Shown piece by piece: positions 15,561 through 47,438 of a DNA stretch of 63,081 bases. Source of the stretch: Deltaproteobacteria bacterium (GTDB lineage: Bacteria; Myxococcota_A; Polyangia; Polyangiales; JADJMO01); assembly GCA_025363655.1 (NCBI GenBank), contig JANYDK010000010.1, forward strand, positions 1 to 63,081, given 5' to 3'. A program made the position numbers and the translations under genes. Numbering within the stretch: the first letter of the stretch is position 1; each line of letters begins with the position of its first letter. The notes under the pieces are model-generated. The model searched no databases, was not told where the DNA came from, and saw only the letters and a list, made by a program, of their open reading frames with translations.

Positions 15561-15698
15561 GCCGATCCTGCCGTCGATTCTTCGGTATCGAACTGCCGGG
15601 CCCGTCGACAGATACGTCGAATAGGTCGCAGCGCGGCGAGGCGCACGAGCCAGCCGGCGAACGCGGCCCACGAATTTTCAGATGCCGCCCCGTGCGGT

Positions 15699-15732
15699 GG
15701 AGATGGCGCGCAATGGTTGTTGCGCCACCTCC
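15699..15732 (+). ncRNA. Leader hairpin of hcp mRNA
   Basis: A stem of GGAG-A-TGGCGC pairing with GCGCCA-C-CTCC, with a single A/C mismatch and a 12-base loop, lies 33 bases before the hcp start codon. It falls in the 205-base untranslated gap, just ahead of the GAGGA ribosome site at 15754-15758. It may stabilise the message or bind a regulator. No base of the ribosome site is in the stem, so direct occlusion is not evident. Confidence 0.4.
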
Positions 15733-15765
15733 GTCGAGCTTCGGGCGGAACGCGAGGATTTCCCC

Positions 15766-16266
15766 ATGTCGATGATGACGTATGCGTACTTGAAGGGTCA
15801 GAAGAGCGGGCAGATCAAGGGCTCGATTACCCAGAAGGGTCGCGAGGACTCCATCGGCGTCATCGCCGTGAGCCACTCGATCGTCAGCCCGCGCGATCCG
15901 CAGAGCGGCCTGCCCACCGGGCAGCGCATGCACAAGCCCTTCGTCTTCACGAAGGAGCTCGATAAGGCCACGCCGGTTCTTTACAACGTCCTCTGCACCA
16001 ACGAGAACCTCACCGACGTCGTCTTCAAGTTCTGGACGCCGCAAATCAAGGCTGCCCAGGGCGTCGGCGGCGAGGTTCAGCACTACACGGTCAAGCTGAC
16101 CAACGCGAACATCGCTTCGTACGACTTCCGTCAGGCGAACATCCGTCACCCCGACCTCGTGAAGTTCACGGAGTACGAGGAGATCGCCCTCACCTACCAG
16201 AAGATCGAGTGGACCTGGAACGACGGCGGCATCACCGCTGGCGACGACTGGGAAGCCCGCGTCTGA
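15766..16266 (+). CDS. hcp: Hcp family type VI secretion tube protein
   Basis: 166 residues, the normal size for Hcp. The start is ATG 15766, preceded by GAGGA at good spacing; upstream in-frame ATGs give a non-family extension. Family features: opening AYLKGQKSGQIKGSITQKG, then DPQSGLPTGQRMHKPFVFTK, VLYNVLCTNENL, and the closing YQKIEWTWNDGGITAGDDW. Hcp forms hexameric rings that stack into the T6SS inner tube and also carries effectors. No tssB, tssC, vgrG, clpV or tssJLM gene is in the window, so this is an orphan copy. An intrinsic terminator follows, making it a monocistronic unit. Confidence 0.92.
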   Translation: MSMMTYAYLKGQKSGQIKGSITQKGREDSIGVIAVSHSIVSPRDPQSGLPTGQRMHKPFVFTKELDKATPVLYNVLCTNENLTDVVFKFWTPQIKAAQGVGGEVQHYTVKLTNANIASYDFRQANIRHPDLVKFTEYEEIALTYQKIEWTWNDGGITAGDDWEARV

Positions 16267-16355: not shown

Positions 16356-17570
16356 TCAGCGAAAATCGAGGCGGGCGCGCGTTCCCCAAGGACAGGCGAA
16401 GGAGAGCGGCTTCGTCAGCACCCAGAGGGTCGCGACCGCGGGTGGATGCTCGGGCACCGGGCCTTGGCCATCGGTGAAGACGACGACGCCGTCGACGCCG
16501 TGCGAGCGGAGGAAGGCGCGCTCGAAGGGCGGGCGCAGATCGGTGCCTCCGCGTCCCTTCACCTGCGGAAGTGAACCGTCGAAGGGGAAAACACGCGCGA
16601 TTTCGACGTCGCACTCGGCGATGGTGAGCCGCGCGCTCTCGCTCATCGGCGAGAGATGGCGCACGATTTCATGCAGCTCGCGCGAGCTCATGCTCATCGA
16701 GGTGTCGAGGACGACGAGCACGTGCGGACGGGCGATGACCCGCGGCGAATAGGTGCGCCCCGGCATCTCGCCGATGCGGCTGGGAAAGCGTCGGCTCGGT
16801 CGCGACCAGGTGTGCACCGGCGCGCGCGTCTTGGCGACGAACATGCGCAGCGCCGTACGCCAATCGACGAACTGTCGCGGTGGTCCGGCGACGCCGGTGA
16901 GCTCTTCGAGGAGACGACCGGGCGTGGTCCCCGCGAGCTGTCCGCTCTTCGGCGCGTGCTCGAGCTCTTTGGGAGACGGCGCCGATTCGCTGGCGCGCTC
17001 GAGAAGACGCTGCGTCTCTTCCACGCCCCCCGGCGGCGGCGGCTGGCCTTTCTCTCCCGGCTGCCAGAGGTGTCCGTCGACGAAGCGCAGTTGACGGAGA
17101 TTGGGGATCGGCTTGCCACCGGCGCGCGTCGCTTCGAGCTTGCGATAGCGCTCGATCGTGCTCTCCCGTCCACGCACGCCGTAGGCTTCGAATTGCTTCC
17201 AGGTGATCGGATCGGGCAACGGCTCTTCGATGAACTCGTTGGCCGACATCTCTTCCGCCAACTCCATCAAGTCGGGGTGCGCGGCGTCGAAGAACTTCGG
17301 GTGCGTGAGGTGCCCGAGGACGATGTGATGCACCTCGTGGAGGAGCACGCCGCGGAGGAACTGCGGGTGCTTCGTCATGTGCTCGACGTTGACGTGCAGG
17401 TAGTAGCGTGGCGCGCCTCGTCGCGACGAGAGCGAGACGGCCATCACCTCGACCGACGGATCGGCGACCGGCTCGACCTGCGCGAGCACCGCCGCGTAGT
17501 ACGGATAGCGCGCGAGGAACTCCGGCCCGTGGGTGAATTGATCGAGAAATGTGCGAAGGTCTTCGGCCAC
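16356..17570 (-). CDS. VWA-like protein with N-terminal HExxH metallopeptidase domain (DUF2201 type)
   Basis: 404 residues from a GTG six bases after the MoxR stop. The N-terminal half is a zincin-like domain with HEVHH (His78, Glu79, His82) and a later Glu-rich helix (LAEEMSANEF). A Pro-rich linker (about 170-215) leads to a C-terminal von Willebrand A domain with an intact MIDAS: DTSMS (Asp289, Ser291, Ser293), Thr343 in GGTDL and Asp367 in FTDGQ. DUF2201/VWA proteins pair with MoxR ATPases and are thought to act in metal-centre insertion or complex assembly. The gene arrangement here is the same. Confidence 0.85.
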   Translation of the reverse strand: MAEDLRTFLDQFTHGPEFLARYPYYAAVLAQVEPVADPSVEVMAVSLSSRRGAPRYYLHVNVEHMTKHPQFLRGVLLHEVHHIVLGHLTHPKFFDAAHPDLMELAEEMSANEFIEEPLPDPITWKQFEAYGVRGRESTIERYRKLEATRAGGKPIPNLRQLRFVDGHLWQPGEKGQPPPPGGVEETQRLLERASESAPSPKELEHAPKSGQLAGTTPGRLLEELTGVAGPPRQFVDWRTALRMFVAKTRAPVHTWSRPSRRFPSRIGEMPGRTYSPRVIARPHVLVVLDTSMSMSSRELHEIVRHLSPMSESARLTIAECDVEIARVFPFDGSLPQVKGRGGTDLRPPFERAFLRSHGVDGVVVFTDGQGPVPEHPPAVATLWVLTKPLSFACPWGTRARLDFR

Positions 17571-17576
17571 GCGCGC

Positions 17577-18869
17577 CTACGAGGTCGGTCGGATGGGCGT
17601 GATCGAGAGCTTTTGCAGCATGTCGACGAGCGGCATTCCCCAGCGCTCACCGAGCTGGACGAGAAAGTGCCCGAGGCTCGCGCGCATCGGGTTGCTCTTG
17701 CGGACCTCGGCGGCGTGCTGCGGCAGCGCGAGGTGTGCGCGAAGGGCAGTGACCAGAAGACCGACGCGGTGGTGCTTCTTCGGATCGGCCTTCCACGCTT
17801 CGACCACCTGCGCGGCCTTGCTCGCGCCATAGTTGATCATCACGTCCTTCGCCTGCACGTCGAGGAGCGGCACCGCGGTGGCGTTGCTCGAGAGCGCCTC
17901 CTGCAAGAGCTCGCGCTTGTCGCCGGGGAGATCGCCGATCAACGCTTCGAATGCGCCGAGCGAGAGGCCTTTGCGGGCGACGAGCACTCCGGCCTCCGGG
18001 CCTTTGAGGATGGCGCAGAGTCGATGGGTGACCTCGTCGAGGCGATCGGTCTCGCCGCGTTCGCGATAGCCGCGGAGCACCTTCGCCGCCTCGCCCTTCG
18101 GATCGTACGCAGCGAGGAGCGCGTGCACGTCGACGTCGAGCGGCACCGCTGCGGTCTCGCGCAAGGCGAGGAGTGCCTCGACCCACGAGCCGGGCAAGTA
18201 GCCGCCGAGGACGTCACGAAGGAGGGCCGCGTCGCGCAGCTCGTCGCGCGAGAAGGCCTGCAGCACCTGTGAGGCATAGGTCCACGTGCGTGGCGGCACA
18301 TCGTCGAGGAAGCGCTCGTGGGTTTGCGCGAGGGTCACGATCGACGCGTGGACGCCGTTGCCGATCGCCCAGGCGATGAACGAGGCGCGATCGGCGCGCA
18401 CGGGCACGTGGAGAAAGCGCGCGCGCAACGCCGGATCGAGCGGCGTCACTTGATAGTCGCCGGTCTCGGGGTTGATCGCGGCGACGCACGACCAACCCTC
18501 GGGGAGCTCGTATTCGTGGAGCTTGCGCGCGGTGAGGAGCTGCAGCGCGGGCTGTTGGATGTAGCGTTCGGCGCGGTTCAGCTCTTCGAGCATCAAGATG
18601 CCGCGCCCGTCGCGAGGGAGAATCGCCGGGAGCGCATAGCGCGTGCGTCCACCTTCGACGACCGGCAGACCCACGAGATCGGGCGGCTCGAGGAGGCTCA
18701 AATCGAGGACGACGGTCGCGAGCCCGAGCTTCTTCGCCACTTGTTGCACGATCTCGGACTTGCCGATTCCCGTCGGACCTTCGAGCAGCACTGGCCTTCG
18801 CGCGCGATAGGCGACGTCGAGGATGCGCTCGAGGCGCGGACCGAGTGGCAGTTCGGGGCGCGGCGGCAT
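17577..18869 (-). CDS. MoxR-type AAA+ ATPase
   Basis: 430 residues. Walker A GPTGIGKSE (31-39), Walker B ILMLEELNRA (about 92-101) with the double acidic of AAA+ proteins, sensor-1 VAAINPETGDY and arginine-finger region LDPALRARFL. The C-terminal half is helical and longer than in the smallest MoxR proteins. MoxR ATPases act as chaperones with VWA partners; the VWA gene follows six bases downstream, so the two should be cotranscribed and coupled. The gene is divergent-free upstream: the cytochrome gene on the same strand ends 18 bases away. Confidence 0.87.
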   Translation of the reverse strand: MPPRPELPLGPRLERILDVAYRARRPVLLEGPTGIGKSEIVQQVAKKLGLATVVLDLSLLEPPDLVGLPVVEGGRTRYALPAILPRDGRGILMLEELNRAERYIQQPALQLLTARKLHEYELPEGWSCVAAINPETGDYQVTPLDPALRARFLHVPVRADRASFIAWAIGNGVHASIVTLAQTHERFLDDVPPRTWTYASQVLQAFSRDELRDAALLRDVLGGYLPGSWVEALLALRETAAVPLDVDVHALLAAYDPKGEAAKVLRGYRERGETDRLDEVTHRLCAILKGPEAGVLVARKGLSLGAFEALIGDLPGDKRELLQEALSSNATAVPLLDVQAKDVMINYGASKAAQVVEAWKADPKKHHRVGLLVTALRAHLALPQHAAEVRKSNPMRASLGHFLVQLGERWGMPLVDMLQKLSITPIRPTS

Positions 18870-18887: not shown

Positions 18888-21230
18888 TCACTGCGCGGTC
18901 AGTCGAACTTCGGCGGTCGCCATCTCCACGATCTGCAGGTTCTGCGTCAAATCGCCGAGCGATTTGTCGTTGGTGTCGCCGTCGGCGAGCTCGCGGAGGA
19001 GGCAGGGCGCGAGGCTGCGGAAGAGCAATCGCACGGTCACCGTCGCGCGCGTCGCTGGGCCCGGAAAGGGAATGGTGTACCCGAAGCGGCGTTCTTCGAG
19101 CGGTTGCAACGGCACCATCTTCGTCTTGTCGAAAGGGCGCGTCCTCGGCACGACGCCGGCGCGCACGCGCTGGAGCATCGTCTCGACGCCTTTCTCGGCC
19201 TGCTCTTGCTTGAAGTCACCGACGTCGTCGAGCAGCTTCTCGCCCGTCTTCTCGTCCTCGACGATTTGGAACTTGCTGACCAACTTCTGCTGCAAGTTGA
19301 CGAGGAACGGATCGCTCTTGGTACAACCTTTGACGTGTTTGGCGACGGGATTTCCCGGGTCGTCCATCGTCGAGGCGTCGCACAGATCGTCCCCGGCCTT
19401 CTCGACGACGCCCGACGAGAGGAGCTCGTTGCCGCTCCCGTCGGTGACGATCACCTCGAGCCACACCTGCCGCGCGAAGGCGAAACCCGTCGGCAGGTTG
19501 TGCCCGGAGCCGCCGTTCTTCAGCCGCGCCTTGAAGGTGAGCTTGCCGCCCGTGATCGAGCCGCCTTCGATCGAGAGCGACGCCGCGCTGCGAAGGAGCT
19601 GCTCGCGGGCCTTCTTTTGTGGGTCGTTCGTCGCCACCTCGTCGATCGGATAGTCGACACCGACGAAGCTGTGATCGTGGACCGCGCGAGGCGGCGCCGA
19701 CTCGTCCTGCTCGAAGGGGATGCTCGCGCCATCGGCGGCGCGCGTCAGCTGATCGACGAGCGGCATGTGGCACCCGAGACAGGTGCCGCTGCCGCCGGCC
19801 TTCTGGTAGCGGCCGTACTCTTCGATGAGCTGCTGGAGGACGAGGTCTTGTCCTTTGACGATCTTGCCGTCGGAGTTGGTGTCGTAGGTGACGTCGTGAC
19901 AGCCGACGCAGAGCCGCTCGCCGTCCTCGAACACCGGCGTCTGCTCGCTCTTGTGGTACGCGTTGCCGACCGGATCGGCGATCGGTCCGAAAAACGTGCT
20001 CCCCGGCTCGTAGATCGAGAGGGACGCCGAGAGCCCCATCGCGCCCGGCCCCGGCGGCTCGCCGCGAATCTGGTGACAGGTGGCGCAGCCGACGCCTTCG
20101 TTGAGGAGGTCGTCGTCGTAGAACGGGCGCGAGAGCGGCAGCGAGACGTCGCTGGTGAGCGCAGTGCCGATCGGGCCGTGGCAGTTGATGCAGATTTTCT
20201 TCGGATCGGGCGAGGGGAGGCCAGCGTACTCGCCTGCTTGCAGCTGTGCGTGCTGCGCCACGGTCACCGGGCTCGTCATCGCGTGCGCGTGCATCGAGTT
20301 GCGCCACTGCTCGAAGTGCGCGCGATGACAGCTCGCGCAGTTCTTCGACGGATGAAACCCAGAGAGGTCGCCGATGGGCACGCCGCCGATGTTCGAGAGT
20401 TTGGCGGGGAGCTCGAGCGCGGCGACGACGTGGAGCGCCAGGAGCGGCACGAAGAGGATGGTCAGCGGAATGTGGATGACGCGAAATCCTTGGAGAATTC
20501 GTGTGTATTTCGTCTGCAGGGCCTGCCTTCGTCGCGCGCGCGAGAGGCTCTTGGCGAGGACGTCGAGCTCGGCGACGAGCCCGCGTTCTTCTTCGGGAAG
20601 CTGCATCGTCGGCTGCGCGATGTCGGCGCCGCTGCGCTCGGTCTCGACGAGCCAGTCCTTGAGACGACGAAGCGAGTCGGAGCGACCGGCGGCGAGCTTC
20701 TCGATTTCGGTGAGCTGCTCCTCGGCGCGCTTTTCACTGCCTGATTTCGAGTAGTTGCCGATCTTCGGCGCGGCCACCTTGGGGACCGCCGAGTAGACGA
20801 TGCGCCAGGCGACGCCGGTGAGCGCGAGGAGCGCGAAGACGAGGAAGACGAGCTTGCCGGTGGAGAAGTGGGTGCTGATGACGCCGTAACCGCCGTGCAG
20901 CGTGGCGGCGACGAGCGCGAGCGCGCCGACGGCGACATGCAGCCAGAGCCAAGTCATCATCGTCGCGCGGCCGAAGGGAAGTCGCTCTTGCAACGACCGC
21001 TTGCGCAGCGAGTAGAAGAGCGCGAAGAGTGTGAGGGCGACGGCCGAGCTGCCGAGGATCACGCCGCTGCTGGTGTACCCGCGGAGCTCGCGGCCGAAGC
21101 CGTCGAGGGCGCCGCTCGTGGCCAGCACCGCGAGGACGACGAACGCACAGGTGCCACCGGCCGAGACCGCCATCCAGGGCCACGGCCGCTCGAAGAGTCG
21201 GAGTTTACGGGTGAGCGTCGGGTTGCTCAT
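18888..21230 (-). CDS. Membrane-bound pentaheme cytochrome c
   Basis: 780 residues. Five predicted TM helices (about 18-40, 55-74, 92-112, 126-145, 252-271) enclose a cytoplasmic coiled-coil-like segment (165-245). After the last helix come five CxxCH heme-attachment sites: CASCH (298), CINCH (347), CATCH (382), CVGCH (441) and CLGCH (484), spaced like cytochrome c554/NapC-NrfA-type domains. A C-terminal beta-rich domain contains GGSGHNLPTGFAFAR, the pattern seen in many multiheme proteins from metal- or sulfur-respiring bacteria. Membrane His residues (His98, His112, His253, His267) could bind heme b. Electron transfer across the inner membrane is likely; donor and acceptor are unknown. Confidence 0.85.
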   Translation of the reverse strand: MSNPTLTRKLRLFERPWPWMAVSAGGTCAFVVLAVLATSGALDGFGRELRGYTSSGVILGSSAVALTLFALFYSLRKRSLQERLPFGRATMMTWLWLHVAVGALALVAATLHGGYGVISTHFSTGKLVFLVFALLALTGVAWRIVYSAVPKVAAPKIGNYSKSGSEKRAEEQLTEIEKLAAGRSDSLRRLKDWLVETERSGADIAQPTMQLPEEERGLVAELDVLAKSLSRARRRQALQTKYTRILQGFRVIHIPLTILFVPLLALHVVAALELPAKLSNIGGVPIGDLSGFHPSKNCASCHRAHFEQWRNSMHAHAMTSPVTVAQHAQLQAGEYAGLPSPDPKKICINCHGPIGTALTSDVSLPLSRPFYDDDLLNEGVGCATCHQIRGEPPGPGAMGLSASLSIYEPGSTFFGPIADPVGNAYHKSEQTPVFEDGERLCVGCHDVTYDTNSDGKIVKGQDLVLQQLIEEYGRYQKAGGSGTCLGCHMPLVDQLTRAADGASIPFEQDESAPPRAVHDHSFVGVDYPIDEVATNDPQKKAREQLLRSAASLSIEGGSITGGKLTFKARLKNGGSGHNLPTGFAFARQVWLEVIVTDGSGNELLSSGVVEKAGDDLCDASTMDDPGNPVAKHVKGCTKSDPFLVNLQQKLVSKFQIVEDEKTGEKLLDDVGDFKQEQAEKGVETMLQRVRAGVVPRTRPFDKTKMVPLQPLEERRFGYTIPFPGPATRATVTVRLLFRSLAPCLLRELADGDTNDKSLGDLTQNLQIVEMATAEVRLTAQ

Positions 21231-21311: not shown

Positions 21312-22607
21312 ATGGGCGGCGGTCGCCTGCGACGCTATGCCGAGGTGGCCGCCGACTCCGAAACCGTGCTCGAAGCCGAAGCGCGTGCCCGCATCGGCAC
21401 CGTGCTCCGCGGCAAGTGGACGGTCGACGCGCTCCTCGATCGCGGCGGCATGGCGTCGGTGTTTTCGGCGACCCATCGCAACGGCAACCGCGTCGCCATC
21501 AAGGTGCTCCACCGGCACATCTGCGAGCGCGCCGATCTGAAAGATCGTTTTCTTCGCGAGGGCTACGTCGCCAACAAGGTCGGACACCCGGCGGCGCTGC
21601 AGGTGCTCGACGACGACGTCGCCGAAGACGGCGCGGTCTTCCTCGTGATGGAGCTCTTGGAGGGCGAGTCGCTCGAGGCGCGCATGCGGCGCACGCGCAT
21701 TCTCACGCCCGTCGAGGCTCTTTTCGCAGCCGATCGCGTGCTCGACGTCCTCGCCTCGGCGCACGATCACGGCATCGTCCACCGCGACGTCAAGCCGGCC
21801 AACGTCTACATCACCAAAGACGGACGCATCAAGCTGCTCGACTTCGGTCTCGCGCGCGTGCGGGAAGCGTCCTTCAAGTTCGAGGCCACGCGCGACGGCG
21901 TCCTCCTCGGCACCGCCGCTTACATGCCGCCCGAACAAGCGCAGGGCCGCGCCGCGCTCGTCGATCACCGCAGCGATCAATGGGCGGTGGGCGCGCTCCT
22001 CTTCACGACGCTCTCCGGTCGCTTCGTCCACGAGGCGAAGACGATGACCGATCGAATCATCGCCACCGCGACGCTGCCGGCGCGCTCGCTCGTCGAGGTC
22101 TATCCCTTCGCCGAACAAGAGGTCGTCGACCTCGTCGATCGCGCGCTCTCCTTCGACAAAAATGCACGTTTTTCCGACTGTCGAGCGATGCGCGCGGCCG
22201 TCGCACCGGCCCTCGCCCGCGCCGCAGCGCGCGTCGCCGCCAACCCGCCGACCTCGACGATGCCGACCAGCAAGCCGACGAGCCATCAGCCCGGAAGCGA
22301 GCCGCGCCCTGGTATCGCCGTCGATCTGCAGAGCGTGGCCCTCGAGAGCGTGGCCCTCGAGAACATCGGCGAATCGATCGCCATCGATCTCGTGAAACCG
22401 AGCAAGACGAGCTCGAGCGACGCCCTCTCGAGCATCGAGGTCGAGCTCGAGCATGAACCGATGGCATCGACGGTCGAAGTCTCGCCGAGCATGCTCCTCG
22501 AAAACGTCGAGGACGTCGCGCCCGCGCCGCCGTCGTCCGCGCCGCTCTCCCCGCCGCGTCCGGCGCTCGGCCCGCCGAAGGCAGTGCCGCGTCCGACCAA
22601 GAGGTGA
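21312..22607 (+). CDS. Cytoplasmic Ser/Thr protein kinase
   Basis: 431 residues. Hanks-type kinase domain about 33-310: glycine loop DRGGMASV, Lys64 in VAIKVL, catalytic HRDVKPAN (157-164), DFG (177-179), and the activation-loop end GTAAYMPPEQ with PPE in place of APE. The remaining 120 residues are low-complexity and rich in Pro, Ser and Glu; the repeat SVALESVALENI near 340 is notable. No TM segment is present, so it is probably soluble. It is divergent from the pentaheme cytochrome gene, suggesting that redox state or respiration is one context for its activity (inference). Confidence 0.88.
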   Translation: MGGGRLRRYAEVAADSETVLEAEARARIGTVLRGKWTVDALLDRGGMASVFSATHRNGNRVAIKVLHRHICERADLKDRFLREGYVANKVGHPAALQVLDDDVAEDGAVFLVMELLEGESLEARMRRTRILTPVEALFAADRVLDVLASAHDHGIVHRDVKPANVYITKDGRIKLLDFGLARVREASFKFEATRDGVLLGTAAYMPPEQAQGRAALVDHRSDQWAVGALLFTTLSGRFVHEAKTMTDRIIATATLPARSLVEVYPFAEQEVVDLVDRALSFDKNARFSDCRAMRAAVAPALARAAARVAANPPTSTMPTSKPTSHQPGSEPRPGIAVDLQSVALESVALENIGESIAIDLVKPSKTSSSDALSSIEVELEHEPMASTVEVSPSMLLENVEDVAPAPPSSAPLSPPRPALGPPKAVPRPTKR

Positions 22608-39535: not shown

Positions 39536-41422
39536 TCACCCGCGCTCGGTGTTCTTCGCGCCCTTCGCCGCCTCGATGGCGGTGCGTGGATCGACGCGGA
39601 AGGCAGCGCCGGTCGGGCACGCGGTGACGCACGCGTAGTCGTCGTGCTCGGCGCAGAGATCGCACTTCACCGCCTTCATCGGGATCTTCGGATCGAGCTC
39701 GCGCTCGTAGGCGGCCTTGTTCGGGCCTCCGCGGATGAGGTCGAGGAGGGAGGCGATCCAGCCCTTTTTCTTCTGCTCGACCGGGTGCATCGAGATGTTG
39801 CCGTAGGGGCAGCGCTCGGCGCAGGCACCGCATCCGATACAGTTTTCTTCGACGATCGCGATCTCGCCGGTGGGCCGGCGGACGATGCCGTTGACGCTGC
39901 AGAGGAGGCAAACCGGATCTTCGCAGTGTCGGCAGGCGGTGGGAAAGAGGAGGTTCTCGACCTGCAAGCCGCGGAGCTGGAGACGACTCTCGCCGTGGCG
40001 ACGTCCGCAGGCGTCGATGCAGTTCTGACAGTTCACGCACAGCTTCTGATCGACGACGAGCACTTCGCGCCCCTGCGCCAGGCCCTGATCGACGAGCACG
40101 TTCATGTTGAAGGGGAGATAGGCGGTGTTGTGGACGGCGCGAGCCGCCGCCGCCGGCTTCTGCGCAGACAAATCTTGCGCGCGGGCGACCTGCTCGACCT
40201 CCATCGCGCCGCGCACCAACGCTTCGTGCGCCTGCGGATGGCGCGCGAGGATGCTCATGAGGTGTGCGCCGGGGATGCGGATGACCTCGGCGCGACTGCT
40301 GGCAGCGACCGAGAAGGTGTGGGCGCGTTCACCGAGCGCGAGGCCGAGCGCACCGAAGAGATCGCCCTCGCGGAAGTAGACGAGCACCGTCTCTTCCGCG
40401 GTCTTGTCGGGCTCGCCGGAGAAGCGGCCGGAGCGCTCGGGCAGGGAGCCGGCCATCGCCGCCATCGCCGCGATGCGCATCGATTCTTCGGCCACGACCT
40501 TGCGGCTGACGCGGAGAAATCCGCTGCGTACGAGGAAGACGTCACGCGGCGCCTCGCCCTCGCGAAAGACGGCCTCGCCGGGCTTGACCATTTGCAGCTC
40601 GGCGCTCTTCAAGAGCTCGTCCATCGCCTCTTCGGGGAGGCCTCCGAAGACGGACGGTTTGCGTGCGTAGGTCCAGAGCGCGCGACGACGATAGAGCTCG
40701 TCCATCGTCGCGCCGAAGGTCTCGGACTGGCTCATCAGCTGCTTCACCGCAGCCTTGGGCAGCTCGACGACGATGGAGTCGTCGGTGGCCGTCACCGTGA
40801 AGGGCTCGGGCTGATCGGCCATGATCGCCAGCTCACCGAAGAACGAGCCCGGCCCGTAGACGAGGATGCGTACCCGCTGGGTCGCGCTCACTTGCGACGT
40901 CTGTTCGAGCGAGCCGCCGAGGATGACGTAGAGGCGCTCGTGGAACTCGCCTTCACGGCAGAGCTCTTCGCCACGCGAGAGCCTTCGGAGCGTCGCCTTC
41001 AGCGCCAGGCGTCGCAAATCGGCGGAGGAAATCCCGGCGAAGAGCCGAATGCTCCCGAGCTCGCGGGCCATCGAGTCGAGCGTGTAGCCAGACGTCGCGA
41101 CCTCGTCACCGACCTGCAGCATGAGCGGGTAGTCGGGGATGCGATCGTCGACCTTCATCTTGTTGAACAGCACCATGTCGGCGCGGCTCAAGTCGGCGGG
41201 ACAGACGGGGACGCACTGACGGCACTGCGTACACGCGCCGAGGAACTGCACGAGGTTCGGCTGCGTGATGACCGGCAGGTGGATGGCGGCGTTGAGCTCG
41301 GCGATGGTGACGATGCTCGCTTCGGGGAGCGGGCAGGCGAGCATGCAGTCGTGACAGCCGATGCAGGCCATCACCTCGCGCTCGGCCTGCTCGGCGAGGA
41401 CGTCGCGGTAGTCGACGGTCAC
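39536..41422 (-). CDS. Hexa-[4Fe-4S] protein with two cNMP-binding-like domains
   Basis: 628 residues from a GTG overlapping the upstream stop (GTGA). N-terminal HdrC-like pair of clusters: Cys20/23/26/30 and Cys64/67/70/74. Two CRP-type beta-roll domains follow at about 128-235 and 258-400. The phosphate-binding cassettes are degenerate: FGELAIMADQPEP lacks the Arg, and the second (FGALGLALGER) lacks the Glu. A DmsB/HycB-like C-terminal part has four clusters: Cys462/465/468/472, 497/500/505/508, 528/531/534/538 and 587/590/598/602. It should carry electrons, gated by an unknown ligand, probably from the oxidoreductase encoded just upstream. Confidence 0.88.
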   Translation of the reverse strand: MTVDYRDVLAEQAEREVMACIGCHDCMLACPLPEASIVTIAELNAAIHLPVITQPNLVQFLGACTQCRQCVPVCPADLSRADMVLFNKMKVDDRIPDYPLMLQVGDEVATSGYTLDSMARELGSIRLFAGISSADLRRLALKATLRRLSRGEELCREGEFHERLYVILGGSLEQTSQVSATQRVRILVYGPGSFFGELAIMADQPEPFTVTATDDSIVVELPKAAVKQLMSQSETFGATMDELYRRRALWTYARKPSVFGGLPEEAMDELLKSAELQMVKPGEAVFREGEAPRDVFLVRSGFLRVSRKVVAEESMRIAAMAAMAGSLPERSGRFSGEPDKTAEETVLVYFREGDLFGALGLALGERAHTFSVAASSRAEVIRIPGAHLMSILARHPQAHEALVRGAMEVEQVARAQDLSAQKPAAAARAVHNTAYLPFNMNVLVDQGLAQGREVLVVDQKLCVNCQNCIDACGRRHGESRLQLRGLQVENLLFPTACRHCEDPVCLLCSVNGIVRRPTGEIAIVEENCIGCGACAERCPYGNISMHPVEQKKKGWIASLLDLIRGGPNKAAYERELDPKIPMKAVKCDLCAEHDDYACVTACPTGAAFRVDPRTAIEAAKGAKNTERG

Positions 41423-43719
41423 GAGGCCACCGCGCTCTGTGCGCTCACCGCACTGGCGTGGAATTGCAGGCTGACGGCGCCGAGTTGGAGCGTGTCACCG
41501 TCGCGGAGCACCACCTCGTGACCGGCGACGAGGCGCACGCCGTTGTGCGTGGTGCCGGCGCTGCTCGCGAGATCGCTGACGTGCCAGCTCCCGGAGACGA
41601 AGGAGAGAAGGGCGTGTCTCCGCGAGATGGATAGGTCTTCTATGCGAATTTGGGTCGTCAATTCTCGGCCGATCGTCGAGGGCGAGCCGGCGACGACGAA
41701 GCGCATGCCGCGAAATGCGCCGCTCTGGCCGACGAGGACCGCGGGAGAACTCGTCGAAGTCGTCGTGCTCGGTGCAGCTCCGGCGACGCTCACGACAGGG
41801 GCGGGCGAGTACACCTGCGGTCGCATCATCTCGGTGCCGGGGGCGCGCGGCGGCGAGACGGAGGTGTCGTGGACGCGTGCGGAGACGGGCGCGGTCGAGT
41901 CTTGTCGAAACGTCAGCTCGGTCGTACCCACGGTCACGCGATCGGCCGGCAGGAGTCGGTGCGGGACGGTGACCTGCTTGCCGTTGACCCACGTGCCGTT
42001 GCGACTGCCCATGTCGCGGAGGAAGAGCCCGCCGCCATAGGCCGTGATTTGCGCGTGCACGGTGGAGACGCCGGGATCGGAGAGGACGATGCCTCCGCGC
42101 GGATCGCGGCCGATGCTGATGACCGCGCCTTCGAGCGGGAAGCGATGGCCCGCGCCTTCGAGGAACGCAGTGACCGGCGAAGGGCGGAGGAGAGCGCTTG
42201 CCGCAGCTTGTTTCAGGCCGATCGAGAGCACCGTGCCGTTCGCCGGCACCGACATCGGTGCGGCCTCGGGCGTCGACACCTCGAGCACGCGCGCGGGGAT
42301 AGCCTGTGGAGCTCCTCCTCCTCCAGCGCCGACCCTTTGCTTCATGAACACGCTCATCGCCGCGGCGAGCTCACCGAGCTTCACGTGCTGCGTGCCGCGG
42401 AGCTCGGCGGCGTCGGCGACGACGGAGGTGGCGACCATCGAGGTGTTCGGTTTTTCGACGAGCGAACGACTGCGCAGCCAGGCGCCGAGGTCGAAGGCCG
42501 GATCGAGGAGCTTGCGACCGAGCGCGCGGACGTCGACCCGTTCGTCGATGAGACGCTTGAAGAGGCGCCCTCGTTGCCTCACGCGCGCGTCGCGATCGCC
42601 GAGCATGAGCGCGCCGACGAGCCGGCCGTCGACCATCATCAGCTTGCGATAGGCGATGCGCCCGCCGCCGCGCGGGACGTCGAGGATCTCTTCGGCGCCC
42701 GCCGCCTTGCCGATGGCACCGACGGAGGCGAAGTCGAGATCGAAGAGGCGCGTCGCGAAATAGAGGACGCCGGGAGCGTAGACGCGATCGCGCCTCGCCA
42801 TGTTGCTGGCGGCGACCTGCGCTTCCAGGCGCGCCGGCTCCCACAGTTGCGAGAGGTTGCCGTCGAGCTCGGCGACGTCGCCGGCGGCGTAGACGTTGGG
42901 CACCGAGCTGCGCATGCGCGAATCGACCGCGACGCCGCCACGACGACCGAGGGCGATGCCGCTCCCCTGCAACATCTCGGTGTTGCAGACGACGCCGATG
43001 GCGACGGCGACCACCTCGCAAGGAATGACTTCTCCCGAGCGTGTGCGCACCGAGCCGACGTTGCCTTCCCCGTCGGGGAGCGCGGCGGCGACCTCTTCTT
43101 GCACGCGCACGTCGAGCCCGCCCTGACGGAGGCGCGCGGTGAGGAGATCTTGGGCGACCTCGTCGAGCGCACCGGTCATCATGCCGCGCTCGCGGATGAG
43201 CATGGTCACCTTCACGCCGCGCTCGCGCATCGCCAGCGCCCACTCGAGCGCGAGCGGTCCGCCACCGACGACGACCGCGCGACGGAGCCGGCCGAGCGCG
43301 ATGCAGTCCATGATCCAACGCGTGTCCTGCAGTGTTCGAAGCGTGCAGACCCCGGCGAGGTTCGCACCCTCGAAGGGCGCGGTGCGCGAGCGTGCGCCGG
43401 TGCCGATGAGGAGCGCGTCGTAAGGAACGGGCGTCCCGTCGTGGAGCCAGACGTGCGACCTCTGCGCGTCGACGCTGGTGACGCGCGCGTGCACTCGCTC
43501 TGCGCCGACGTCGGCGAAGAAGGTCGGAGGCACCGCCCACACCTGTTCGTCGCGGAGCTCGCCGAGCATGTAGTTGGTGAGCGCCGCACGGAAGTACGCC
43601 GGGTGCGGATCGTCCGAGACGACCTTGATCTCACACTGCGGATCGAGGGTGCGGAGCGTCTGCGCGGCGGTGATGCCGGCGGCGCCGTCCCCGAGGATCA
43701 CGTAGCGGGCGCGGGCCAT
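41419..43719 (-). CDS. FAD/NAD(P)H oxidoreductase fused to two FHA domains
   Basis: 766 residues. The first 400 form a pyridine-nucleotide-disulfide-type flavoprotein (NirB/NADH-oxidase subgroup): FAD site GDGAAG (10-15), NAD site VVGGGPLALEWA (150-161), second FAD motif VYAAGDVAE (277-285). No CxxC redox pair is seen. After a helical linker, FHA1 (about 520-605) has GRDP, STVHAQI and GSRNGTWVNG, and FHA2 (about 672-755) has IGREL, SISRRHALL and TTHNG. These motifs hold phosphothreonine peptides, so a Ser/Thr kinase should control or recruit the enzyme; a kinase gene lies three genes upstream in the same unit. Confidence 0.9.
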   Translation of the reverse strand: MARARYVILGDGAAGITAAQTLRTLDPQCEIKVVSDDPHPAYFRAALTNYMLGELRDEQVWAVPPTFFADVGAERVHARVTSVDAQRSHVWLHDGTPVPYDALLIGTGARSRTAPFEGANLAGVCTLRTLQDTRWIMDCIALGRLRRAVVVGGGPLALEWALAMRERGVKVTMLIRERGMMTGALDEVAQDLLTARLRQGGLDVRVQEEVAAALPDGEGNVGSVRTRSGEVIPCEVVAVAIGVVCNTEMLQGSGIALGRRGGVAVDSRMRSSVPNVYAAGDVAELDGNLSQLWEPARLEAQVAASNMARRDRVYAPGVLYFATRLFDLDFASVGAIGKAAGAEEILDVPRGGGRIAYRKLMMVDGRLVGALMLGDRDARVRQRGRLFKRLIDERVDVRALGRKLLDPAFDLGAWLRSRSLVEKPNTSMVATSVVADAAELRGTQHVKLGELAAAMSVFMKQRVGAGGGGAPQAIPARVLEVSTPEAAPMSVPANGTVLSIGLKQAAASALLRPSPVTAFLEGAGHRFPLEGAVISIGRDPRGGIVLSDPGVSTVHAQITAYGGGLFLRDMGSRNGTWVNGKQVTVPHRLLPADRVTVGTTELTFRQDSTAPVSARVHDTSVSPPRAPGTEMMRPQVYSPAPVVSVAGAAPSTTTSTSSPAVLVGQSGAFRGMRFVVAGSPSTIGRELTTQIRIEDLSISRRHALLSFVSGSWHVSDLASSAGTTHNGVRLVAGHEVVLRDGDTLQLGAVSLQFHASAVSAQSAVAS

Positions 43720-43735
43720 CGATGTCTCCGTCGTA

Positions 43736-45439
43736 TCACGGCGGCTTGGGCGAGGAGATCTGCTGCGACCAACGGAGGAGCGCGTAGCAGCAGTGCTGGA
43801 CGGCATCGATGCGGATCGCGAAATCGACGACGCTGCTCGGCACCCCGCCGAACGTCGCGGCTGGGTCGGCGAAGAGGTGGCGCGGGCCGGGGAGCAGTTG
43901 GGTGCGGACCATGAACGCGAGCGCGCGGCGCACCTGCCCGCCGATCGCCACCTGCTCGTCGGCGCTCACCGTCGGAATCGAGCTCGCGACCGAGAGCGCG
44001 CCGAGCACGGAGAGCACGCCTTCGATGCGCCCACCGATCACGGCGGGGTGCGGCGCGGGAAACGGGGTCACGCCGAAGGCTCCATCGAGATCGGGCTCGT
44101 CCAGGGCGAGGGGCTTCTCGAGCTGCATTTCCCGAGTGATCGCCGACCAGCGGACGCAGAACTCGAGAGCCGCCCCATCCGGTCTATGCGCGGCGAGCGC
44201 CTCCATCGCCTGACACGTCCAGTGCTCTTCGCCGAACCAGTAGCGGGCGCCGAAATAGCTCGGGCGCACCAGGCGTCCGAGCACCGCGGCGGCGACGTCG
44301 AGATCGCGGACATCCCCGGTGACCTCGGCGGCGCGGGCCAAGGCGAGCGCTGCTTCGCCAGAAAAATAGGGGCGTTGGAGCTCGACGACCCGGCCCGTAC
44401 GGAGGTCGAAGCGGTGCCAAAGATCGCCGTCGGCGCGTTGCAACGAACGGAGGAACGAGGTGAGACCGACGATGTCGGCGCGGACGGCGTCGTCCAGCGG
44501 CACGATCGCCGTCGCGCCTCGCGTGGTCTCGACGATCGCGAGGAGGGTGAGCGCCGCGACGCCGGCATCGGCGCTCTCGCCCTCCGGAAAGCATCGCGTC
44601 GCGGCGCAGGCGACGAGCCGGATCCGAAGCGCAGTGACGGCGCGCGCGGCCGCTTCACGCAACAGCGCTTCTGACGTCGTGCGGGCGGCGGCTGCGAGGA
44701 AAAGCGTCGCGCCGGCGTGCCTCGTCCAATTGTATCCGGGTAATATTTCGCCGGTCACCCCATCGACGGCGTAGTGGAACATCCCCTCCTCGGTGGTGTG
44801 TCGCGCGAGATAGCGGGCCCCTTCGAGCGCCGCAGCGCGCGCGGTCCCAGGGTCGAGGTCGGTGGCGGAGACGAGCTTCGGCGGCGTCTCGCCGAGAACC
44901 TCGCGATGCATGCGCACTCGCCGGAGCGTCGCGCGCGCGCGGACGACGGCAGGGTCGAGCTGCAGTCGTGACGCAGCGACGTCGAGGAAGAGATCACGAT
45001 CGGCGCCCATTTCCAGGTCGATCGCCGGCAAGCGGAGCGCGTGATCGTAGGCCGCGCGGACGATCGCGTCGTCGGGCGTCACCAGGACGTCGCGCCCCTC
45101 GACCGTGACGAGGACGCCGTCGAGCCCAGGCACGAGCGCAACGGAGAACAGGAGCTCGTTCGTCGGCAACGGCGCATCGGCGACGACGCGCTCGGAGACG
45201 ACGGTGCCCGCCGAGGTCGTGCGCGCAGCGAGGATCTCGGGCGGCGGCGCCGCACCGTCGTTCGTCGTCACGCGCAAAATGAGACGCCCACGTTGCCAGA
45301 CGCTCCAGGCGATGGGTCCGTTTCGAGGTCGAAGCCGCGCGTAGGCCCGCGCCGAGAAGAAGCCGAGGAGGGCGAGGCAGGCGGTGAGACCGAGCGCGGC
45401 GAGGAGGAGTCGAATCGTCTTCCGGGTGCGCGCGTTCAT
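43736..45439 (-). CDS. Membrane-anchored alpha/alpha-toroid-like protein
   Basis: 567 residues. Uncleaved TM anchor at about 9-30 (LLLAALGLTACLALLGFFSARAY in overview), then a strand-rich region to about 140. The C-terminal 370 residues are helical with repeats typical of (alpha/alpha) barrels: GARYLARHTTEEGMFHY, YNWTRHAGATLFLAAA, EEHWTCQAMEALA. Glycosidases, lyases and terpene-cyclase-like proteins share this fold; I cannot identify catalytic residues. The start codon overlaps the upstream stop, and a 16-base gap precedes the FHA-oxidoreductase. The catalytic domain should face the periplasm. Confidence 0.7.
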   Translation of the reverse strand: MNARTRKTIRLLLAALGLTACLALLGFFSARAYARLRPRNGPIAWSVWQRGRLILRVTTNDGAAPPPEILAARTTSAGTVVSERVVADAPLPTNELLFSVALVPGLDGVLVTVEGRDVLVTPDDAIVRAAYDHALRLPAIDLEMGADRDLFLDVAASRLQLDPAVVRARATLRRVRMHREVLGETPPKLVSATDLDPGTARAAALEGARYLARHTTEEGMFHYAVDGVTGEILPGYNWTRHAGATLFLAAAARTTSEALLREAAARAVTALRIRLVACAATRCFPEGESADAGVAALTLLAIVETTRGATAIVPLDDAVRADIVGLTSFLRSLQRADGDLWHRFDLRTGRVVELQRPYFSGEAALALARAAEVTGDVRDLDVAAAVLGRLVRPSYFGARYWFGEEHWTCQAMEALAAHRPDGAALEFCVRWSAITREMQLEKPLALDEPDLDGAFGVTPFPAPHPAVIGGRIEGVLSVLGALSVASSIPTVSADEQVAIGGQVRRALAFMVRTQLLPGPRHLFADPAATFGGVPSSVVDFAIRIDAVQHCCYALLRWSQQISSPKPP

Positions 45440-45885
45440 CGCGCCTCGAGCTTGCTCTCGAGCTTGGCGTCACGCGGCGCGCGGAGACCGAGCCAGACCA
45501 ATTGCGCTCCCGGGAGCACGACCAAGTACGGGAGGACGAGGGCGACGACGATCGCGAAGAGGATCACGCCGCCACGCCCGACCGGCCCGTAGATTCCGGA
45601 GAGAAAGCCGATCGTCGTGGCGAGCGCGACGATGGTCGCGAGGCCGAAAAAAAGGACGATCCCCGCGGCGATGCGCGTCACGCGCGGCGCCCATCGCGTA
45701 TCGGCGAGGAGCCCGAGGCCGGCCGCGAGGAGCAGCACCGAGGCGAGACTGCCGCCGAGATCGATGGGAGCCCACCGCGCCGGGAGGGCGACGAAGATTC
45801 CGAAGAGCGTCACCGCGGCGCCGAGCAGATCGGCGACGCCGAAGAAGACACGAAGGAGCGAAGACGAAGGTGCGCGCTCGCTCAC
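45436..45885 (-). CDS. Four-TM membrane protein
   Basis: 149 residues with four hydrophobic helices (about 12-35, 43-60, 70-93, 105-130) and a charged tail (KLESKLEAR). No recognised family. It overlaps both neighbours by four bases (ATGA), so its translation is coupled to that of the kinase upstream and the toroid protein downstream. That linkage is the best clue to its role, possibly as a membrane scaffold. Confidence 0.72.
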   Translation of the reverse strand: MSERAPSSSLLRVFFGVADLLGAAVTLFGIFVALPARWAPIDLGGSLASVLLLAAGLGLLADTRWAPRVTRIAAGIVLFFGLATIVALATTIGFLSGIYGPVGRGGVILFAIVVALVLPYLVVLPGAQLVWLGLRAPRDAKLESKLEAR

Positions 45886-47438
45886 GGCAGGACTTGGTCG
45901 AGCAGATCTTCGGCGGCCGCCAGATCGGGCGGCGCGAGCGCCATGTAGACGCGATTTCCGATCGCCTTCGCGGCCATCTTGTTCTTCGGATTGCCGCCCA
46001 TCGCCTTGGCCGTCTGCTTGGCAGCGTCGGCGGTCTCGTAGACGTAGATGTAGACGCCGCCGTAATCGGCGCCTTTTTGCAGGGTCATCACCCGCACGTC
46101 GATGCCCGCGCTCTTGGTCGACGACGTGGCCACGACCGTCCAGTGCTGCTCTTTCAAGATCTTCTGGATGCGCCTCACCTCGGCGTCGATCGAGTCGCCG
46201 GGCGGGTCGTCGTCGTCTTCGTCGGACTTCTTTTTCTTCTTCTTGTCGTCGGGGTCTTTCTTCGACTTCTGATCTTTCGCTTCGTCGCCGTCGTCGCTCG
46301 AGCTCTTCGACGACTTGTCGCGCTGCTCGCCGCGCACCACGAGCAGGTAGCCGGCGCCGGCACCTCCGGCGACGACGATGGCGATGAGGACGAGCAAAAC
46401 GACGAGCACCGTCTGGTTGCCGCGCGCAGCTGCGTGCACCGCGGGCGCCGCCATCGCGGGACCGCCGATCGGGACGTAGGGGCTGGCCGGACGACCGCTC
46501 ATCGGGCTGGTCATCGGCGCAGCTCCGAGCATCGCCGTCGGCGCCGTGATGCCCGAGGGTCGATCGAGATCACCGCCGACGCCGCGGACGATCGTCTCGA
46601 TGGCGTCGCGCATCTCGGTCGCGCTGGTGAAGCGTCGCGTCGGATCTTTCTGCGTCGCGCGATGGACGATGGCGCCGAGTGGGCTTTGCAACACCGGCGC
46701 CGGCAGTGGCACCGGATCGGGCCCGATTTGCTGGAGGCAGACGTCGGTGGCGGCGCCTTGGAAGATCATCTGGCCGTAGATGGTCTCGGCCATCACCAGG
46801 CCGAGCGCGTAGAGATCGGCCGGCGGCGTCGGCGCGCTGCCGAGGAGAATCTCCGGCGCCATGTAGTGCGGCGTCCCGATGACGTGTCCCGATTGGGTCA
46901 GGCCAGGCGAGGTCGCGGTCGCCGGCGCCTTGGCGATGCCGAAGTCGAGGACCTTCACGAAATCGGTTTCACCCTGGAATTCGCAGAGAAAAATGTTCGC
47001 CGGCTTGATGTCGCGGTGGACGATGCCGTGCGCGTGCGCCTCCATCAGCGCCTTCAACACCTGGAGCGCGATCTTCGCGGTGCGACCGGCTGACATCGGA
47101 CCGCCACGTCGCAACGCCTCGTCGACGGACTCGCCGCGGAGCAGCTCGAAGGCGATGAAGGGCACGCCGTTTTCGGCCTGACCGAAATCGTAGAGACGAA
47201 CGACGTGCGGGTGCTCGAGCCGCTGCGCCAGCTGCGCCTCGCGTTGGAAGCGTACGAGCCCTTCGTCGTTGGCCAGCACCTCGGCGTGCAAGAGCTTGAG
47301 CGCGACCAGTCGACCGAGGTTCAGCTGCGTCGCGCGATAGACGCTGCCGAAGCCGCCCTGACCGATTTGCGCCTCGAGCCGATAGCGACCGGCGACGACG
47401 TCTCCAACGCGCAAGGTCGGCAGCGGCGTGGGCGTCAT
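45882..47438 (-). CDS. Transmembrane Ser/Thr protein kinase
   Basis: 518 residues from MTPTPLPT. Kinase domain about 19-285: glycine loop IGQGGFGSV, Lys48 (VALKLL), HRDIKPAN (141-148), DFG (165-167), HYMAPEI. A Pro/Met/Ala linker, one TM helix (343-368), then a very charged Lys/Asp linker (375-415) and a C-terminal extracytoplasmic domain (about 418-518; EVRRIQKILKEQHWTVV, GADYGGVYIYVYE). It is an active kinase by all visible residues. First of five tightly packed genes that include a protein with two FHA domains, the expected reader of its phosphothreonines. Confidence 0.9.
   Translation of the reverse strand: MTPTPLPTLRVGDVVAGRYRLEAQIGQGGFGSVYRATQLNLGRLVALKLLHAEVLANDEGLVRFQREAQLAQRLEHPHVVRLYDFGQAENGVPFIAFELLRGESVDEALRRGGPMSAGRTAKIALQVLKALMEAHAHGIVHRDIKPANIFLCEFQGETDFVKVLDFGIAKAPATATSPGLTQSGHVIGTPHYMAPEILLGSAPTPPADLYALGLVMAETIYGQMIFQGAATDVCLQQIGPDPVPLPAPVLQSPLGAIVHRATQKDPTRRFTSATEMRDAIETIVRGVGGDLDRPSGITAPTAMLGAAPMTSPMSGRPASPYVPIGGPAMAAPAVHAAARGNQTVLVVLLVLIAIVVAGGAGAGYLLVVRGEQRDKSSKSSSDDGDEAKDQKSKKDPDDKKKKKKSDEDDDDPPGDSIDAEVRRIQKILKEQHWTVVATSSTKSAGIDVRVMTLQKGADYGGVYIYVYETADAAKQTAKAMGGNPKNKMAAKAIGNRVYMALAPPDLAAAEDLLDQVLP

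Follow-up and report, generated by a model that had tools for sequence, protein, structure and literature searches.

The window, a 63,081-nucleotide stretch of a contig from a Myxococcota genome (JANYDK010000010.1), carries five consecutive minus-strand genes, KIN, TM4, TOR, FHAOX and FES, and, on the same strand about 18 kb downstream of FES, a cytochrome gene, CYT (Table 1). A first-pass annotation of this DNA overlooked CYT and interpreted the five clustered genes as a single kinase-FHA-redox system.

Table 1. Features of the window, with positions counted from its first nucleotide.
Feature	Position	Strand	Description
KIN	45882-47438	minus	Transmembrane Hanks-type Ser/Thr kinase with an orphan periplasmic C-terminal domain
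TM4	45436-45885	minus	4-TM protein; read as a passenger from a TM4-TOR envelope module
TOR	43736-45439	minus	Membrane-anchored periplasmic (alpha/alpha) toroid, sugar epimerase/GH-like fold; read as a passenger
FHAOX	41419-43719	minus	NAD(P)H/FAD oxidoreductase of the NirB/PadH/CoA-disulfide-reductase type with two C-terminal FHA domains
FES	39536-41422	minus	Two predicted [4Fe-4S], two cNMP-like beta-rolls, four predicted [4Fe-4S] of HydN/HycB type
CYT	18888-21230	minus	Membrane cytochrome, predicted diheme-b/pentaheme-c; third partner of FHAOX-FES
Second Ser/Thr kinase	21312-22607	plus	Divergent from CYT
AAA_5/DUF2201 pair	16356-18869	minus	AAA_5 ATPase and VWA-like DUF2201 protein
Hcp-family protein	15682-16266		Type VI secretion Hcp family (PF05638)

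Gene layout and the two modules of the cluster

The coordinates and junctions confirm the tight packing of the five genes described in the first-pass annotation, including a 16-nt gap between TOR and FHAOX, which contains a GGAG ribosome site, and a GTGA overlap between FHAOX and FES. The ATGA overlap reported for TM4 and TOR is likewise present, while the one reported for KIN and TM4 is in fact GTGA (CCTGCCGTGAGCG). No convincing terminator was detected between the five genes, the region holding 6 terminator-like sites against 4.5 expected by chance. Close gene packing by itself is commonplace in bacteria; the combination of genes, unlike their packing, is not ordinary. All five were found together in no other genome examined, and no orthologues of FES, FHAOX or full-length CYT were detected in genomes of the same family at the cut-offs used, so that the five-gene order is untraceable in close kin.

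KIN matches the Pfam Pkinase profile (1.5e-47; 162.7 bits against a gathering score of 31.7) and retains catalytic motifs of a Hanks-type Ser/Thr kinase, namely the Lys (VALKLL), HRD (HRDIKPAN), DFG (DFGIAK) and APE (MAPE) motifs. Assignment to the PASTA kinases PknB/Stk1 (NF033483) was rejected at 273 bits against a curated cut-off of 450. For the periplasmic domain of KIN, a search of 178 further genomes of the order at E 0.001 recovered no relative.

No Pfam domains were found in TM4 or TOR. The structure model of TOR (pLDDT 89) shows an N-terminal membrane helix followed by an (alpha/alpha) toroid with a fold like that of sugar epimerases and glycosidases. Homologues of TOR occur in 144 of 290 genomes of the class; their usual neighbour is TM4, and the two are adjacent in many Polyangia as well as in the window. 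Neither FHAOX nor a full FES was seen in 18 neighbourhoods of TOR homologues, two of them unresolved by the gene caller, and in a genome with a complete redox operon (G367) the FES orthologue lies on contig 12 and TOR on contig 34. The five-gene cluster thus contains two modules, TM4-TOR (envelope) and FHAOX-FES (redox), the former being, on the best reading, an envelope-sugar module that adjoins the redox genes in the window. Among the examples checked, TM4-TOR is accompanied by MBOAT and GDSL acyl-transfer genes at one locus (L083) and by a GDSL gene at another (L089), which probably represent an uncharacterised envelope-glycan acylation cluster; no MBOAT or GDSL gene was present among the genes scanned near TM4-TOR of the window.

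A three-gene redox core and its cofactors

The Pfam matches of FHAOX comprise Pyr_redox_2 (6e-50) and two FHA domains. Two named families were rejected for this protein: the nitrite reductase large subunit NirB (TIGR02374; 178 bits against a cut-off of 578, covering the N-terminal flavoprotein part only) and PadH, the epsilon subunit of phenylglyoxylate dehydrogenase (NF045765; 156 bits against 475). Relatives of FHAOX were recovered by an alignment-based scan; the lone FHAOX sequence as a query against genome contigs gave no match.

FES matches cNMP_binding in Pfam (2.5e-32), with two or three cNMP-like stretches and several Fer4 domains. Its 24 Cys, arranged in six 4-Cys motifs, are invariant across nine orthologues, indicating six [4Fe-4S] clusters and bearing out the hexa-[4Fe-4S] assignment of the first-pass annotation. 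The proposal in the same annotation of a second ligand in the beta-roll domains is weakened, given that both cNMP-like domains lack the Arg of the phosphate-binding cassette in all nine orthologues. The second domain also lacks the Glu; the Pfam match holds at the level of the fold, and the Glu and Arg of a functional cyclic-nucleotide-binding site are not both present. Cyclic-nucleotide gating of FES was rejected because of the absent cassette Arg, and cAMP or cGMP is an unlikely ligand judging from these residues. A match to family 2B encapsulins covers the cNMP-like stretch only and was likewise discarded.

CYT was recognised through its orthologue in G367, where a multiheme cytochrome of 790 aa comes immediately after FHAOX and FES; the window protein is 43% identical to it. 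Four membrane His and five CxxCH motifs, all invariant among orthologues, predict two b and five c hemes in CYT. Its structure model has a pLDDT of 71 with a low-confidence heme region, and a structure search returned one significant match. The AAA_5/DUF2201 pair, which lies 18 bp downstream of CYT and resembles MoxR/VWA maturation pairs, was not seen beside orthologous cytochromes. The Hcp-family protein was the only T6SS profile match among the window proteins scanned.

Orthologues of FHAOX were found in 12 of 183 other genomes of the order, and CYT was found in the same 12 and, as a fragment only, in one more (Fisher 6e-18, uncorrected for genome kinship). The order FHAOX-FES-CYT is complete in six genomes and elsewhere broken at contig ends; in the window genome all three genes are present and not contiguous. 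Some Chloroflexota, chiefly Anaerolineales, carry this operon too, with FES identity of about 50%, and it is rare there (2 of 298 genomes of the class). In a tree, the Chloroflexota copies group together and the window sequence branches as a separate lineage among those of Myxococcota. CYT is therefore the constant, conserved third partner of FHAOX-FES, and the conserved neighbourhood suggested in the first-pass annotation exists for FHAOX-FES with CYT and not for the five-gene set.

Kinases and FHA domains around the core

The source genome contains 155 Pkinase matches in 9.0 Mb, from which the chance of finding one kinase within 12 kb is about 19%, and a kinase at this distance from the redox genes is consequently no great surprise. 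Other genomes lend independent support to a kinase association. In one Anaerolineales genome (G592) a kinase and then an FHA protein precede FHAOX, FES and CYT, and a run of kinases comes after; this locus accounts for 7 of the 22 Pkinase matches there. In another (G596) an FHA protein, FHAOX, FES and CYT lead into a row of five kinases, out of 21 Pkinase matches genome-wide. An FHA protein also lies upstream of FHAOX at two further loci (L177 and L185). In an Anaerolineae MAG (L179) a single 991-residue ORF encodes a kinase domain (residues 35-283) followed by a whole FES; FHAOX is absent from the contig with this fusion, and G593 has FHAOX on another contig. In Myxococcota, three genomes of genus g24 (Labilithrix, Polyangiaceae or Myxococcales MAGs) encode a large TPR-kinase in divergent orientation to FHAOX, and the kinases adjoining distant FES/CYT complexes of two families are orthologous to each other (52-55% identity).

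No kinase was present in the flanking sequence covered at five orthologous operons (L073, L157, L158, L184 and L186). Overall, 7 of 12 well-flanked loci have a kinase against the roughly one-fifth expected from the source genome, a binomial probability of 0.003 that is rough, as the loci are related and the kinase rate differs between phyla. The idea of a kinase-FHA-redox link, as first put forward without CYT, thus gains support from the sequences of other genomes, with unrelated kinases recurring near the core in Chloroflexota and Myxococcota and one kinase::FES fusion. The second Ser/Thr kinase of the window is a possible companion of the CYT relay. The roughly five tandem kinases that directly follow the cytochrome gene at L205 and L207 (G592 and G596) are 64-74% identical in their catalytic domains and differ in their C-terminal domains (WD40; NPCBM/laminin-G); these arrays are tandem duplicates, perhaps from one ancestral event.

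The FHA domains differ in their state of conservation. All four phosphothreonine-binding residues of the binding loops, Arg, Ser, His and Asn, are present in FHA1 of the window (GRD..STVH..RNGT), which is predicted from them to bind phosphothreonine; FHA2 retains GRE and SRRH and has Ala in place of Asn. In the Chloroflexota flavoproteins, a simple pattern scan showed the four residues to be retained in nearly all the FHA domains that it resolved. The FHAOX orthologues of Polyangiaceae all have another residue in place of the Asn and have often lost Arg or Ser. In the window, G592 and G596, intact reading residues thus accompany kinases in cis; at L181, L184 and L186 the FHA domains are intact, yet the flanking sequence covered holds no kinase. 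Since most Myxococcota FHA domains have lost binding residues and several operons have no kinase in the sequence covered, phospho-control cannot be essential to the family.

Candidate mechanism and alternative readings

Computation establishes a core of three genes with conserved cofactor residues, joint occurrence across genomes and repeated association with kinases. On this basis we propose that FHAOX-FES-CYT is a membrane-bound electron relay under Ser/Thr kinase control via FHA, with TM4-TOR as passengers, a proposal whose chances of being right or wrong we consider evenly balanced. The chain of cofactors is predicted from conserved residues, and we infer the path, its direction, its acceptor and the phospho-control as follows. 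Electrons would be exchanged between NAD(P)H and the FAD of FHAOX, the six [4Fe-4S] clusters of FES and the membrane heme b pair of CYT, and thence with the five periplasmic c hemes of the same protein, so that the relay could either pass reducing equivalents from the cytoplasm to a periplasmic acceptor or, working in reverse, generate NAD(P)H. A Ser/Thr kinase (KIN in the window) would phosphorylate itself or a relay subunit, and the FHA domain or domains of FHAOX, FHA1 in the window, would bind that phosphothreonine and thereby recruit or gate the flavoprotein. TM4 and TOR would belong to an envelope-sugar module that ended up in the same transcription unit. Against this proposal stand the position of CYT outside the window operon, the lack of conservation of KIN itself with the core, the operons with no kinase in the flanks covered, the eroded FHA domains of most Myxococcota, the sheer number of kinases in the genome, the possible single origin of the kinase arrays, the absence of FHAOX from the fusion contig and the modest confidence of the CYT model. 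The wider generalisation to a class of phosphothreonine-switched transmembrane relays in Myxococcota and Chloroflexota, with kinases docking on the FHA domains of FHAOX and setting the flux between NAD(P)H and the periplasmic cytochrome, is offered tentatively.

The best-surviving alternative is a working electron-transfer complex in which the FHA and cNMP-like domains serve for structural docking and the kinase, responding to its own periplasmic signal, is unrelated and shares only the transcript. The abundance of kinases in the genome, the unconserved KIN, the eroded FHA residues of most Myxococcota orthologues and the universally missing cNMP Arg are all in keeping with it, while the kinase::FES fusion, the arrays of kinases and the companion kinases conserved beside the core in other lineages, and the intact FHA residues where kinases lie in cis (Chloroflexota and the window), speak against it, and we regard it as plausible but somewhat doubtful. 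A respiratory reductase, in which FHAOX-FES would feed NAD(P)H electrons to a catalytic pentaheme domain of CYT acting, for example, on a nitrogen or sulphur oxyanion, would suit the nearest solved relative of CYT, a pentaheme cytochrome c552 (5ze8), and, less closely, NrfA nitrite reductases; the NrfA match is weak (about 1e-5), however, all five heme motifs of CYT are CxxCH, and the absence of the CxxCK catalytic heme motif led us to reject CYT as an NrfA and makes a reductase unlikely. The original reading of all five genes as one pathway, with KIN sensing a condition of the envelope that TM4/TOR produce or read, and in turn controlling the redox proteins, draws on the overlapping gene order of this one genome and on the membrane helix and toroid of TOR, which may thus share the periplasm with the KIN sensor domain, but is very improbable given that TM4-TOR occurs widely alongside MBOAT/GDSL genes and apart from the redox genes, that the full set recurs in no other genome seen, with CYT as the partner of FHAOX-FES instead, and that TM4-TOR and the orphan periplasmic domain of KIN show, in part, the independent scattering of homologues that the first-pass annotation had set against its own single system.

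For the proposed kinase-controlled relay, the nearest known logic is PknF-Rv1747 of Mycobacterium tuberculosis, a two-gene operon in which a Ser/Thr kinase positively modulates a membrane machine with two FHA domains (PMC3908365). That machine is an ABC transporter, whereas here the effector would be the flavoprotein of an electron relay under putative phospho-control. In PknG-GarA/OdhI and PpkA-Fha1, a kinase and an FHA protein control metabolism or a secretion machine (PMC6213207), but their FHA is unfused to a redox enzyme, unlike that within FHAOX. The nearest known chemistry is found in the anammox Rieske/cyt b complexes Kuste4569-4574, whose NAD(P) oxidoreductase modules, like the proposed relay, place FAD and a [4Fe-4S] chain on the negative side of the membrane and link them to heme b and multiheme c across it (PMC12954380); in contrast to the system described here, neither FHA nor cyclic-nucleotide domains are named in the text of that paper. 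Among the genes scanned in the window and in orthologous operons, none matched a profile for a Rieske protein or a bc1-type cyt b, and assignment to this complex type was rejected on the lack of both matches at these loci. AorABC of Aromatoleum (PMC10413684) has an NADH/FAD subunit (8c0z_E) of a type related to FHAOX, and HycB of HDCR (PDB 7qv7) is a polyferredoxin of a type related to FES. These two differ in serving a tungsten enzyme or formate/hydrogen chemistry. We know of no FHA, cNMP-like or cytochrome part in either. Open-licence papers yielded no fitting system that combines FHA, cyclic-nucleotide and multiheme cytochrome parts.

Ser/Thr kinases are very numerous in Myxococcota, and to our knowledge few of their targets have been established. 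If true, direct kinase/FHA control of a respiratory-type relay would tie signalling to redox balance, and the kinase::FES fusion and kinase arrays would provide concrete kinase/target pairs. An unnamed family of flavin/polyferredoxin/cytochrome complexes now has a defined gene set. Beyond it lies a wide, distant family in Myxococcota (about 30% identity; L075-L080, L099-L114) of cNMP-like/[4Fe-4S] proteins encoded beside multiheme cytochromes, often with FHA domains and in some members fused to a flavoprotein; proteins adjoining two of these distant FES homologues (L105:13891-16221 and L113:1676-3922) contain 28 and 30 CxxCH motifs, respectively.
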